Below, one piece after another: positions 33,562-56,017 of a DNA stretch of 64,000 bases (position 1 is its first letter; every line of letters begins with the position of its first letter). This DNA comes from Parapedobacter luteus (GTDB taxonomy: Bacteria > Bacteroidota > Bacteroidia > Sphingobacteriales > Sphingobacteriaceae): assembly GCF_900168055.1 (NCBI RefSeq), contig NZ_FUYS01000002.1, forward strand, positions 372,888 to 436,887, written 5' to 3'. Made by a program: the position numbers and the translations under genes. The notes below the pieces were generated by a model. The model saw nothing but the letters and a program-made list of their open reading frames with translations, was not told where the DNA came from and made no database searches.

Positions 33562-34758
33562 ATGAGCGAAACACCTTATCAAGAAGCCCAGCGCGCTTAT
33601 GAAGCCCGGATAGCGGCCATTGGCGCCGAAGAGATGGTCATCAATATGGGGCCGCAACACCCGTCGACACACGGCGTATTGCGTCTGCAACTGATTACAG
33701 ACGGTGAGCTTGTGAAAGAAGTCATCCCGCATGTTGGTTATTTGCACCGTTGTTTTGAGAAGCACGCCGAATCCATGAATTACGGAAAGACCATCCCGTT
33801 CACGGACCGGATGGATTATTTGGCCTCCATGAATAACAGCCATGCGTTTGTAATGGGGGTAGAGCGCATGCTGGGCATCGAAAAGCAATTGCCCAAGCGG
33901 GTTGAATACATCCGCGTTTTGGTATGTGAGCTCAACCGTATTGCTTCCCACCTGATTGCAATCGGTACCTATGGTATCGATATCGGCGCATTTACGCCGT
34001 TTATGTGGTGTTTTCGTGACAGGGAGCATATCATGAATATGTTGGAGTGGGCTTCCGGCTCAAGAATGTTGTACAACTACATTTGGGTAGGCGGATTGTT
34101 TTACGACTTGCCAGTGGGGTTTGAAGCCCGTTGCGCTGAATTTGTGCAGTATTTTAAGCCCAAGTTGGCCGAGCTGGACGAGCTGTTGACCAATAACCGG
34201 ATTTTCGTGTCACGTACTGCCAATATTGGCGTGTTGCCTGCTGACGTGGCTATCAACTACGGCTGTTCGGGTCCAATGCTGCGGGCCTCCGGTGTAAAAT
34301 GGGACCTACGAAGGGTAGACGATTATTCCGTTTATCCAGAGCTTGAGTTCGATATTCCAATAGGGGAGGGAGAAATGGGTCACGTAGGAGACTGTTGGGA
34401 TCGCTTCAAAGTACGCGTGGAGGAAATCAAGGAGTCGGTGCGGATTATCGAACAATGTCTGGATCGCCTGACCAAGGCATTAAAACGAACGGCAGATTTC
34501 GATCCGAGGGCCTTGGTACCCAAGAAGGTCAACTTGAAGGCGCAGGATTACTACGTGCGTGCTGAAAACCCAAAGGGCGAGCTGGGATTTTATTTTGTTA
34601 CACAGGAAAAGACAGACATCCCCAAGCGGGTGAAGGCCCGTGGCCCAAGTTTTCACAACCTGTCGGTGCTACCGGAGCTGGCGAAGGGTGTACTTATCGC
34701 TGATTTAATAGCCATATTGGGTTCAATTGATATTGTTTTGGGAGAAGTTGATCGATAA
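33562..34758 (+). CDS. nuoD: NADH-quinone oxidoreductase subunit D
   Basis: A 398-aa 49-kDa complex I subunit forming most of the quinone-binding cavity. It contains [15 protein letters not shown] (quinone-headgroup His region), [16 protein letters not shown], and ends in a typical ...[12 protein letters not shown] tail. It is a separate polypeptide from NuoC, unlike the fused NuoCD of Bacteroides and enterics. No nuoE follows; the next element is a promoter-terminator unit and then a gene on the other strand. Confidence 0.97.
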
Positions 34759-34840
34759 TTCCGCATTTATGGCGATATTCAGCGTTGTCCGGGTTAATGG
34801 ACCGCGTTTTTGGCAGATATAAAAAAATAATTTAAAATAA

Positions 34841-34871
34841 TTTTGAAAGTGTGAAATAAACACTATCTTTG
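34841..34871 (+). promoter_or_regulatory. Strong promoter of a candidate small RNA
   Basis: TTTTG (34841-34845), 18 nt, then a perfect TATCTTTG (34864-34871). The predicted start of transcription is near 34877. No coding sequence follows on this strand before the next terminator. Confidence 0.6.
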
Positions 34872-34876
34872 CACTA

Positions 34877-34946
34877 TCATAATTTAGGTTTATAATTGGT
34901 TAGTAAAGGTTTCCATTCTCCCCGTTTGGAAACCTTTCGTTTTTTA
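34877..34946 (+). ncRNA. Candidate small RNA of about 70 nt
   Basis: The short interval between a good promoter and an intrinsic terminator downstream of nuoD. The transcript would have about 28 unpaired A/U-rich nucleotides, then a terminator stem of AAAGGTTTCC with GGAAACCTTT (34905-34914 / 34928-34937) and a U-rich tail. It contains no ORF. No known RNA family was recognised. It could also be a leader remnant. Confidence rests only on promoter and terminator quality. Confidence 0.45.
34905..34946 (+). terminator. Intrinsic terminator of the candidate small RNA
   Basis: A 10-bp perfect stem, a 13-nt loop (34915-34927), then CG followed by six T. Also the first terminator downstream of nuoD. 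Confidence 0.75.
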
Positions 34947-34995
34947 CTGAGGTGTTTATTTTCGGTGCTTGCCTGCCGGTTCAGCGGGGGGCATA

Positions 34996-35028
34996 AAAAA
35001 ACCACTTGGAGTAACCCAAGTGGTTTTT
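34996..35028. terminator. Bidirectional terminator downstream of the beta-barrel gene
   Basis: A 13-bp stem (AAAAACCACTTGG with CCAAGTGGTTTTT) and a 6-nt loop, located just 3' of the minus-strand OMP stop (35050). Confidence 0.85.
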
Positions 35029-35049
35029 AGCAGGAGTAGTCTTTACTGC

Positions 35050-35646
35050 TTAGAAGTAAAACTGTACACCAAGCCGTGGAGCCAAAGAGTTAGCATTCAA
35101 CCCAAAAGAGTTGGTGGTTACGTTGCTTCCTTCTTCCGGCTTAATGCTGGAGTTCTGATAGTACAAACCTCTTACTGAAAGTTCAATGCCGATTTTGCTC
35201 GTTGGGAAATATGCGAATCCCGGAGCCAGCTCAACACCGTAGCTTTCAATGTTGCCCAGTTTGGTGTCGTCAGCCTTTGCTGTACCCCAGGCCATGGGTA
35301 CTGAAAGTTGGCCAAAGAACTTGAAATTGCTGTCGCCTTTGTATAACCGGGCAAACGGCGCCACGCTGAACGCGTGTACGGTATTGCTGCTTGAGAAAAC
35401 GTCTGCGCCTGCAGTGTTTTTCTCGTACGCATAGCCAATGCCGGTACCCACGGCAAAATTGTCACTGACAAAGTAGCCCACGGAAGGGATGATGCCCAGT
35501 GAATGGCTGTCGATGTCAGCGTCCTTGACGCTTGTATAGTCATACGACACGTTTCCGCCCAAAATGAATTTTCCTTTTTCAGTTTGTGCATTAGCTACGA
35601 AAGTTACTGCAATTGCAGCGGATAAGGTTAAAAATAGTTTTTTCAT
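35050..35646 (-). CDS. Outer-membrane beta-barrel protein (OmpA/OprF-type small porin fold)
   Basis: A 198-aa protein with a signal peptide (about 1-20, ending ANAQ), then about eight amphipathic strands and a C-terminal aromatic (VQFYF), as in small 'porin family'/OMP_b-brl proteins. No OmpA peptidoglycan-binding domain is present. Ligand or function unknown. It is a single-gene unit with its own terminator. Its upstream region carries an exact sigma-54 consensus and not the usual TAnnTTTG promoter, pointing to conditional expression. Confidence 0.85.
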   Translation of the reverse strand: MKKLFLTLSAAIAVTFVANAQTEKGKFILGGNVSYDYTSVKDADIDSHSLGIIPSVGYFVSDNFAVGTGIGYAYEKNTAGADVFSSSNTVHAFSVAPFARLYKGDSNFKFFGQLSVPMAWGTAKADDTKLGNIESYGVELAPGFAYFPTSKIGIELSVRGLYYQNSSIKPEEGSNVTTNSFGLNANSLAPRLGVQFYF

Positions 35647-35929: not shown

Positions 35930-35961
35930 AAGGGCCAAAACGGAATTCCGTTTTGGCCCTT
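35930..35961. terminator. 32-bp perfect palindrome, terminator of dnaJ
   Basis: AAGGGCCAAAACGG and its complement meet around AATT. It lies 31 bp beyond the dnaJ stop. The rest of the 346-bp gap (35647-35992) holds the sigma-54-like site and AT-rich sequence with no supported gene. Confidence 0.85.
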
Positions 35962-55700: not shown

Positions 55701-55915
55701 CCAGCCATCGGGTTTCCGGCCTCATCCCGTACGGTGCCCGACACCGTGGTTTGCAAACGTTGCGATGCAGAAGGCCGCGAGCCATCCGTTGGCAAAGGCG
55801 TTGCGCCAAAGGCCACAAACACATGGAGGATGCATATCCATCCCGTCAGGAGCAAGCACATCGGTCGGTTAAGACTCCCATGGCAGTGCATTGCACATTG
55901 TACATCTTTAGTCAT
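52745..55915 (-). CDS. SusC/RagA family TonB-dependent outer-membrane receptor
   Basis: A 1056-aa TonB-linked importer. An N-terminal signal is followed by a carboxypeptidase D-like regulatory domain (about 55-135, starting TVSGTVRDEAGNPMAG), then the SusC-specific TonB box VVVVGYGTQRK (about 140-150), plug (about 155-270) and a 22-strand barrel ending in INLGVNVGF. It transports the oligosaccharide handled by SusD. It is directly downstream of the HTCS gene, so it is likely activated by it. Confidence 0.96.
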   Translation of the reverse strand: MTKDVQCAMHCHGSLNRPMCLLLTGWICILHVFVAFGATPLPTDGSRPSASQRLQTTVSGTVRDEAGNPMAGVTVSAKQSGINTVTNEEGRYQLVLPAGEAVLTFSFIGYITQEARADTTPDQTSLDIILVADPQALEEVVVVGYGTQRKATITGSVSEVKGGDLVKSPQPNLSNSLAGRFSGLVATNRGGEPGYDGSQIRIRGISTTGNTDVLVVVDGVPGQVGGLERLDPNDIESISVLKDAAAAVYGSRAANGVILVTTKKGNLGKPTVSYSFNQGFSSPTRLPAMADAATYATIRNEIDYYNNPSGGMNQFYSEEDIRKFRDGSDPDRFPNTDWQKEVLAATALQNQHNLSVSGGTETTRYFVSAGTLMQDGLFREGVTKYNQHNFRSNIDMDVTDRFKAGLSVAGREEKRRFPTVGAGDIFRNIYRAYPTVLARYSNGLPSTGIENNNPVMMVTDAGGTNDNPKLVFNGILRASYQLPFLDGLMVDGFLSVDKSQESGKNFITPYLVYSYDASTGQYDPRTVGEARAQLQQFQENTTLTTAHIKLNYEQAFGDHNIKAFAAYEQSERELARMEAGRRNFPSPLTPELSQGGTALEDRTNAGLSWRESRTSFIGRANYDYKTRYLLEVQLRVDGSSIFPKNSRFGYFPGISAGWRISDENWFKQSVSFIDELKLRASYGELGGDNVGANQFINNYIFNNSYTLGSGIYAGVDLAKLANPEITWEVSKKTDIGFNARLFNRFDLEVIYFNEKRSDILLPRNASIPGTTGIVNPFDTNNPLVPSENIGRVDNRGFEATLGYQRQGNITFGIAANTTLVRSNVVFMDEAPGIPEYQRQTGRPLNTYLLYRTLGIFRTQADLDAYPHVPGAGLGDLIFEDYNNDGQITADDMVRTDLGNIPQLTFGLTLNASYKNFDFSAVFAGQGKSRQYILSEAGTIGNYFDTWAENRWSPSNTAGTYPRVSERASSSISGGLYRNDFWLFNTAFVRLKNIELGYTIPQSLVQRIGIGRLRVFANGFNVFTITGLKDFDPEGSSESGQFYPQQRIINLGVNVGF

Positions 55916-56017
55916 AGTTTTACGATTGGTTTATAACTTGATGACAAATGTCAGGCATACACCCATTCAGGAGTGAGGGGTAAAAACAAAAATCGTAGGG
56001 GGTAAATTAGATGGATA

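Follow-up and report, generated by a model that had tools for sequence, protein, structure and literature searches.

Behind nuoD in Parapedobacter luteus a promoter is followed by a terminator with no gene between the two, which raises the question of what such a unit makes. The unit occupies positions 34841-34945 of the window, i.e. the whole stretch of 64,000 nt that was analysed (NCBI RefSeq assembly GCF_900168055.1, contig NZ_FUYS01000002.1, positions 372,888 to 436,887). The reading that we favour, with a probability of roughly 0.7, is that it is a free-standing gene for a trans-acting antisense small RNA (sRNA) of about 70 nt, one of 12 paralogues in the genome, which would lower SusC/SusD by pairing with start sites.

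Anatomy of the unit behind nuoD

The unit opens with a -33 promoter element, TTTTG (34841-34845, + strand), and a -7 element, TATCTTTG (34864-34871, + strand); the earlier note had read this pair as a promoter, and both the letters and the exact 18-nt spacing match. A palindrome, AGTGT-N7-ACACT (34848-34864), sits in the promoter spacer and is a candidate operator. Judged from the position of the -7 element, the predicted RNA would start at 34876 and end with the terminator at 34945 on the + strand. It would begin with an invariant, mostly unpaired leader of 27 nt, CATAATTTAGGTTTATAATTGGTTAGT (34878-34904, + strand), which contains the strongest antisense seed, AATTGGTTA (34894-34902, + strand; complement TAACCAATT). 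The leader runs directly into an intrinsic-terminator hairpin (34905-34937, + strand), the arms of which, AAAGGTTTCC (34905-34914) and GGAAACCTTT (34928-34937), match in 10/10 pairs around a 13-nt loop, and which is followed by the T-run CGTTTTTT (34938-34945, + strand). Within the loop lies a C-rich motif, CUCCCC (34918-34923, + strand), a possible second seed.

The upstream neighbour, nuoD (33562-34758, + strand; Complex I 49-kDa subunit, Pfam PF00346), ends on the same strand 120 nt before the leader begins and plays no functional part in the unit. The next gene downstream encodes an outer-membrane beta-barrel protein on the opposite strand (35050-35646, - strand), so that the perfect 10-bp hairpin with its T-run, the lack of a gene in between and the reversed neighbour are all as described before. 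No conserved open reading frame was found in 34841-34945. The only listed + strand frame of at least 40 amino acids that starts within the unit is a mechanical TTG-start frame (34896-35030), which enters the non-conserved flank. Further along the window, at 35930-35961, a 14-pair symmetric hairpin is terminator-like on both strands and is probably a bidirectional terminator.

A strict scan for a promoter, a perfect hairpin of at least 9 pairs and a T-run, devised after the unit was known, returned a single match in 864 kb of the genome on both strands, the nuoD-site unit, and none in each of six block-shuffled copies of the genome. Given this single genomic match and the empty shuffles, the unit is not a chance arrangement. 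A generic scan reported sigma-70-like matches nearby (34810-34838, 34851-34880 and 34868-34896) and missed both the -33/-7 pair and the terminator of the unit, the latter because it accepts loops of at most 8 nt and this one has 13.

Structure and conservation

The region 34872-34946 folds with a z score of -2.8 (3/200 shuffles fold equally well), and its lowest-energy fold places weak pairs within the leader. For the RNA 34876-34945, the predicted mean probability of being unpaired is 0.77 in the leader, 0.72 in the seed (34896-34902) and 0.02 in the hairpin arms. Across the 43 sequences of alignment A1 (43 of 49 non-redundant sequences) the corresponding means are 0.74 for the leader and 0.67 for the seed, the latter falling below 0.5 in 2 sequences. 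RNAalifold gave no pairs on this mixed alignment, the probable reason being that hairpins fail to align when they differ in loop and spacing. Pair counting was therefore moved to alignment A2, the 16 of these sequences with a CUCCCC loop, in which 96.2% of stem cells are paired and 7/10 pairs have changed on both sides. The covariation score of A2 was reached by 0/500 shuffles and the simpler count, 7 pairs changed on both sides, by 17/500; controls in which the stem was slid gave 0.11-0.27 vs 0.68. While the surrounding stem varies, the CUCCCC motif is invariant in all 16 sequences, which were picked for that loop class.

The earlier note had proposed a ~70-nt small RNA and had looked to related genomes to decide the matter. 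When the window is compared with seven orthologues at the nuoD site, identity is 100% over the leader (34878-34904) and 99.6% over the hairpin, against 26% in the upstream spacer and 31% in the stretch after the hairpin. This contrast supports the predicted gene. Within the promoter, 34831-34845 around the -33 element is 67% identical (26% in the upstream spacer) and 34864-34872 is 89% identical; the palindrome has decayed in some of the orthologues. Covariation and identity counts together tell us that selection is on the RNA: pairing in the stem persists while its letters change, and the letters are fixed in the leader and, within this loop class, in the loop.

In most of the genus the unit does follow nuoD. 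All nine Parapedobacter genomes have a nuoD orthologue and eight carry the element directly behind it. The position is not constant in the ninth genome, G008, the sole one without the element there: its nuoD locus (L323) has no exact leader, and the best model score there, 7.1 bits, is not convincing. Outside the genus, one genome (L066) has a diverged copy, scored at 47.5 bits, at a distance of 95 nt behind nuoD.

Complementarity to susC start regions

The genome holds at least 56 SusC-type genes, and the start regions of such genes look similar to ACTAACCAATTATAAACCTAAATTATGA, the leader in reverse complement. We scored duplex energy at the translation-initiation regions (TIRs, -50 to +20) of 36 SusC genes, namely those of 30 loci and those in 800 kb of the genome, taking the first ATG as the start. 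The mean was -12.89 kcal/mol (n=36), compared with -9.23 kcal/mol inside the same SusC genes and -9.53 kcal/mol at 540 other TIRs, and the SusC TIR energy was reached by none of the shuffled leaders (0/60 mononucleotide, 0/100 dinucleotide). The 'other' genes are those of 550 called in 800 kb after ten were marked as SusC. A few unmarked SusC genes are expected among the 540, because 56 of 148 first-look candidates were scored, and this biases against our claim. The motif TAACCAA occurs in 10/36 SusC TIRs vs 9/540 other TIRs, and the seed complement in 5/36 vs 1/540. One predicted target lies in the window itself, at the start region of a SusC-type gene on the - strand (55911-55943, ATG at 55915; TIGR04056, TonB plug domain), with a duplex of -12.9 kcal/mol; at the SusC start region G000:C16:642596 the predicted duplex reaches -21.7 kcal/mol. 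Several of the top matches other than SusC look like PUL genes judging by their first residues (named by eye).

Composition is the obvious confounder. For a low-GC control we removed proteins of more than 900 amino acids, which left 518 genes, of which 255 were low in GC; their mean was -9.40 kcal/mol (n=255), and the difference from SusC TIRs has a p value of 8e-9. Duplexes of -14 kcal/mol or better were found at 17/36 SusC TIRs vs 9/255 low-GC other genes. Since the remaining 19/36 SusC TIRs pair more weakly than -14 kcal/mol, the predicted targets comprise some of the susC genes and not all. When a 70-nt frame was moved along 30 SusC genes, the energy was -13.1 at the start codon vs -8.8 to -10.3 elsewhere, the peak being restricted to -50 to +20 among ten frames (n=30); the same frame is also the lowest in GC (0.29 vs 0.41-0.54 in the remaining frames). 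The leader read backwards still scored -11.2 on the SusC TIRs of this genome.

Other genomes give a graded picture. The effect repeats in G023 (35 SusC genes; -12.62, 0/200 shuffles), is weaker in G021 (31 SusC genes; -11.25, 1/200 shuffles), and G242, a control genome without the leader, has a weak excess (35 SusC genes; -10.68, z -1.8, 3/200 shuffles). On the first 15 SusC genes of each, the shuffles reaching the energy were 0/300 in G023, 1/300 in G021 and 3/300 in G242 (z -2.7 in the last). A second control genome, G306, was set aside ahead of the counts for its small number of full-length SusC genes. In G023 TAACCAA occurs 7 times vs 0 in coding sequence and duplex energy is also enriched, while AACCAAT is unenriched (2/35 vs 2/35 in coding sequence); in G021 TAACCAA is present in 1/31 SusC genes only. 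The excess in G242, the score of the backwards leader and the AT-rich SusC TIRs indicate that part of the susC signal is composition. We read the remainder as real but partial targeting of SusC starts above the compositional background.

An alternative is that the sRNA family is genuine and the leader serves mainly to bind a protein or as a sponge, or pairs with a different class of RNA, the susC complementarity being partly incidental. This would explain why a 24-nt stretch is identical across genera, longer than a seed usually needs to be. It would also accord with the conserved FopS motif described around the RbpB footprint in B. thetaiotaomicron (PMC11697453, as far as described there), and with the presence of a second conserved element, the C-rich loop. 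Nonetheless, we consider this reading unlikely, as the susC signal is specific to gene class and position and beats both shuffles and low-GC other genes. Moreover, of the two RNA-binding domains searched, RRM_1 (PF00076) had no match in this genome (control Bacteroides ihuae positive) and neither had Hfq (PF17209; 5/14 control genomes positive).

Copies in the genome and spread of the family

The 24-mer CATAATTTAGGTTTATAATTGGTT has nine exact copies in the genome and one with three mismatches; these ten sites are flanked by different genes, and by eye each copy has a hairpin of its own behind it. A DNA search found additional copies both in this genome and in related ones. We built a covariance model, R1, on 16 sequences, the window copy among them, which it scores at 84.9 bits (34878-34939). 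R1 has 12 matches in the P. luteus genome, and the covariance search in other Sphingobacteriaceae that the earlier note had suggested found it in 62/81 genomes and 19/25 genera at E 0.01 or better, in a run with stricter filters that possibly missed weak copies. The seven Parapedobacter genomes of the sample carry 9-20 copies each, and the family maximum is 23. In genus g13 all five sampled genomes (G020, G190, G462, G471, G479) are without an R1 match; they still carry the tRNA-like body described below. In G014 and G448 (L431:1366-1434 and L432:1366-1434) the leader behind the tRNA-like body has diverged (CATACAGGTTTATTGATTGG...); the genome search with R1 did not return it, and with filters off its R1 score is 20.8 bits (E 0.007). 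Because of these diverged leaders, the family is probably wider than R1 shows.

Beyond the family the signal fades. A 24-nt core pattern (up to two mismatches) was found in 8/395 genomes across the phylum, all of them Sphingobacteriaceae (8/11 sampled there). R1 matched 11 of 247 genomes, five Sphingobacteriaceae and six others, the latter with one marginal match each (E 0.0027-0.0096). Among the matches listed, carriers of a 22-nt core are Parapedobacter, Sphingobacterium, Mucilaginibacter, Olivibacter, Arcticibacter, Pedobacter and Rhinopithecimicrobium, along with a few records named with less precision; the names rest on the titles of 80 of 120 stretches. Rfam had no match at the gathering threshold in the 64-kb window, and a permissive search gave a top score of 16.3 bits vs 60 for gathering, nothing convincing. 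Phage and plasmid collections contained no place covering 80% of the query and chance-level pieces only.

Many copies, some of them clustered (five in tandem at L184, and on contig C25 three in a span of 4.4 kb), might suggest a mobile or selfish repeat of the REP or MITE type that carries promoter and terminator by accident. We regard this as very improbable: similarity drops outside the gene at the nuoD site, the position behind nuoD is conserved, and stems differ between copies by paired changes. The weakest reading, a 3'-UTR feature of nuoD in the form of a terminator or of the attenuator-like relic considered earlier, can draw on the shared strand, the distance of 120 nt, the same arrangement in 8/9 congeners and a terminator that could stop read-through too, but against it stand the eleven other model matches elsewhere, the different neighbours of the copies inspected, the invariant leader ahead of the hairpin and the conserved promoter motif, and we give it hardly any credence. 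Since the unit is one of 12 paralogues in the genome, nuoD is just one address.

Comparison with known systems and proposed function

Within open-licence PMC papers, a search for small RNAs of these genera or susC-targeting sRNAs led to FopS and GibS and, by title, to nothing on this family. FopS, reported in 2025 in gut Bacteroidaceae, is described as comprising 12-15 paralogous sRNA genes per genome in Bacteroides, 14 of them in B. thetaiotaomicron, with a conserved single-stranded seed that binds susC start regions and blocks translation, a block that RbpB relieves (PMC11697453). Compared by description and not by sequence letters, the two families share about a dozen paralogues per genome (here 12 R1 matches), a single-stranded conserved 5' seed with a Rho-independent terminator (here by prediction), and pairing with susC starts, which was determined by experiment there and by computation alone here. 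They differ, as far as FopS is described, in host (Bacteroidaceae there, Sphingobacteriaceae here, with marginal single R1 matches outside the family), in the several upstream types, the palindrome and the tRNA-like-linked copies of other genera, and in the partner, as this genome has no RRM_1 (RbpB-like) match. As to the FopS seed, R1/R1', and common descent, the window copy of the present family had no match in Rfam, which may or may not include FopS. By analogy, the present RNA is predicted to work like FopS; this is a likeness in mode of action and not an assignment to FopS, membership of which fails on the RRM partner. Given that neither RRM_1 nor Hfq is matched, the antagonism by RbpB is not transferable to this genome.

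Other systems are further away. GibS of B. thetaiotaomicron is likewise described as an sRNA from an intergenic region that has a terminator and a conserved, unstructured 5' seed and acts on translation-initiation regions; it differs in being 145 nt long, in its extra hairpins and second seed R2, and in its described targets, BT_0771 and BT_3893 (PMC7366714). LhrC (RF00616), described as having seven copies, LhrC1-7 (PMC11697453), is likewise multicopy with a CCCC loop in a hairpin; it was rejected as an identity on a chance-level match, 14 bits vs 110 for gathering. In our own set, no fixed link between copy and target is seen. This is a difference from the DonS-type cis-antisense RNAs of Bacteroides PULs, which also act on susC messages and of which DonS is encoded opposite its own PUL.

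Returning to the antisense sRNA, the unit would be transcribed from its own promoter into a short RNA composed of the unpaired invariant 5' leader and the terminator hairpin with its conserved C-rich loop. The leader may then pair with susC start regions and, by analogy with FopS in B. thetaiotaomicron, this pairing would block ribosome entry, leading to less of the SusC/SusD glycan transporter. Several copies with different promoters could bring different signals into one shared output. Transcription, pairing and repression are predictions, and under them the sRNA probably helps to decide which glycans the cell takes up. If a separate multicopy family is predicted to act on the same class of targets, antisense control of SusC starts would seem to be a general device that Bacteroidota have used repeatedly. 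With at least 56 SusC-type genes in this genome, the family also provides a testable explanation for the way in which many glycan systems might be ranked post-transcriptionally in a cell without a match to Hfq or RRM_1.

Upstream sequences and the tRNA-like form

Upstream sequences vary among the copies. Among the matches listed, 126 distinct exact copies, many of which share descent and are not independent, comprise 38 that follow a tRNA-type T-arm, 29 with a -7 element directly ahead, 43 with GTCTTYTC before CATAA and 16 others. In 41/126, again among the matches listed, GTGT-N7-ACAC occurs within 120 nt upstream, either between the -33 and -7 elements or, in Mucilaginibacter records, further upstream of the leader. 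This palindrome is a candidate operator of a regulator; a count of its 10-base version in 800 kb of the genome (0 vs about 0.8 expected by chance) is uninformative. By eye, four GTCTTTTC-type copies in this genome (L031, L033, L034, L039) have TTAACA-N4/5-TTAACA direct repeats upstream, which we take to be reminiscent of Pho boxes. Loops fall into classes as well (among the matches listed, CUCCCC in 51/126, GCCCAUC-like in 66/126, neither in 9/126), and the fact that these are kept while stems vary makes a second seed possible.

In other genera the leader often stands 23-26 nt after GGTTCGANNCC in the T-arm of a tRNA-like RNA of about 110 nt. All 74 distinct copies (74/74) have a 7-bp acceptor stem, a 5-bp T stem and GTC at the anticodon position, GUC being an Asp anticodon, and G73 is assigned because GC follows the acceptor in 74/74; these copies were picked by a T-arm pattern, mostly via the leader, and therefore carry no frequency information. 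A long variable region sets 38-46 nt between the anticodon stem and the T stem, as in class II. With a separate pattern search the tRNA-like body was found in 42/81 genomes of the family and in 0 of the 7 Parapedobacter genomes in that sample. ARAGORN called no gene at 14/15 tRNA-like loci and a tRNA-Cys at the fifteenth, and the Rfam gathering threshold misses the RNA (11 loci). Allo-tRNAs are described as having serine identity, diverse anticodons including GUC and 8/4 or 9/3 acceptor domains (PMC7609411); by that description they differ from the 7/5 domain found here.

The copies would seem to differ in their inputs: some have a promoter with the palindrome, some an upstream sequence of another type, and copies of other genera may draw on the 3' trailer of the GUC tRNA-like RNA. 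Food for speculation is a family-wide RNA hub, in which one invariant leader tunes dozens of susC-type transporters without RbpB or Hfq, fed by unrelated inputs that include the tRNA-like trailer, and to which FopS would be convergent or very diverged. We put this forward tentatively, as a possibility with the odds somewhat against it. If true, the trailer input would tie the uptake of glycans to the transcription or processing of tRNA, and FopS and the Sphingobacteriaceae family would be convergent or very diverged forms of one phylum-wide strategy.

The tRNA-like RNA was seen at loci including L022, L023, L025, L026, L027, L043, L049, L050 and L184, the last of which (L184:4107-5635) holds five tandem units of tRNA-like RNA and leader, about 370-400 nt apart. 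At L057:1402-1524, an ordinary tRNA-Cys gene precedes one leader copy by about 30 nt.
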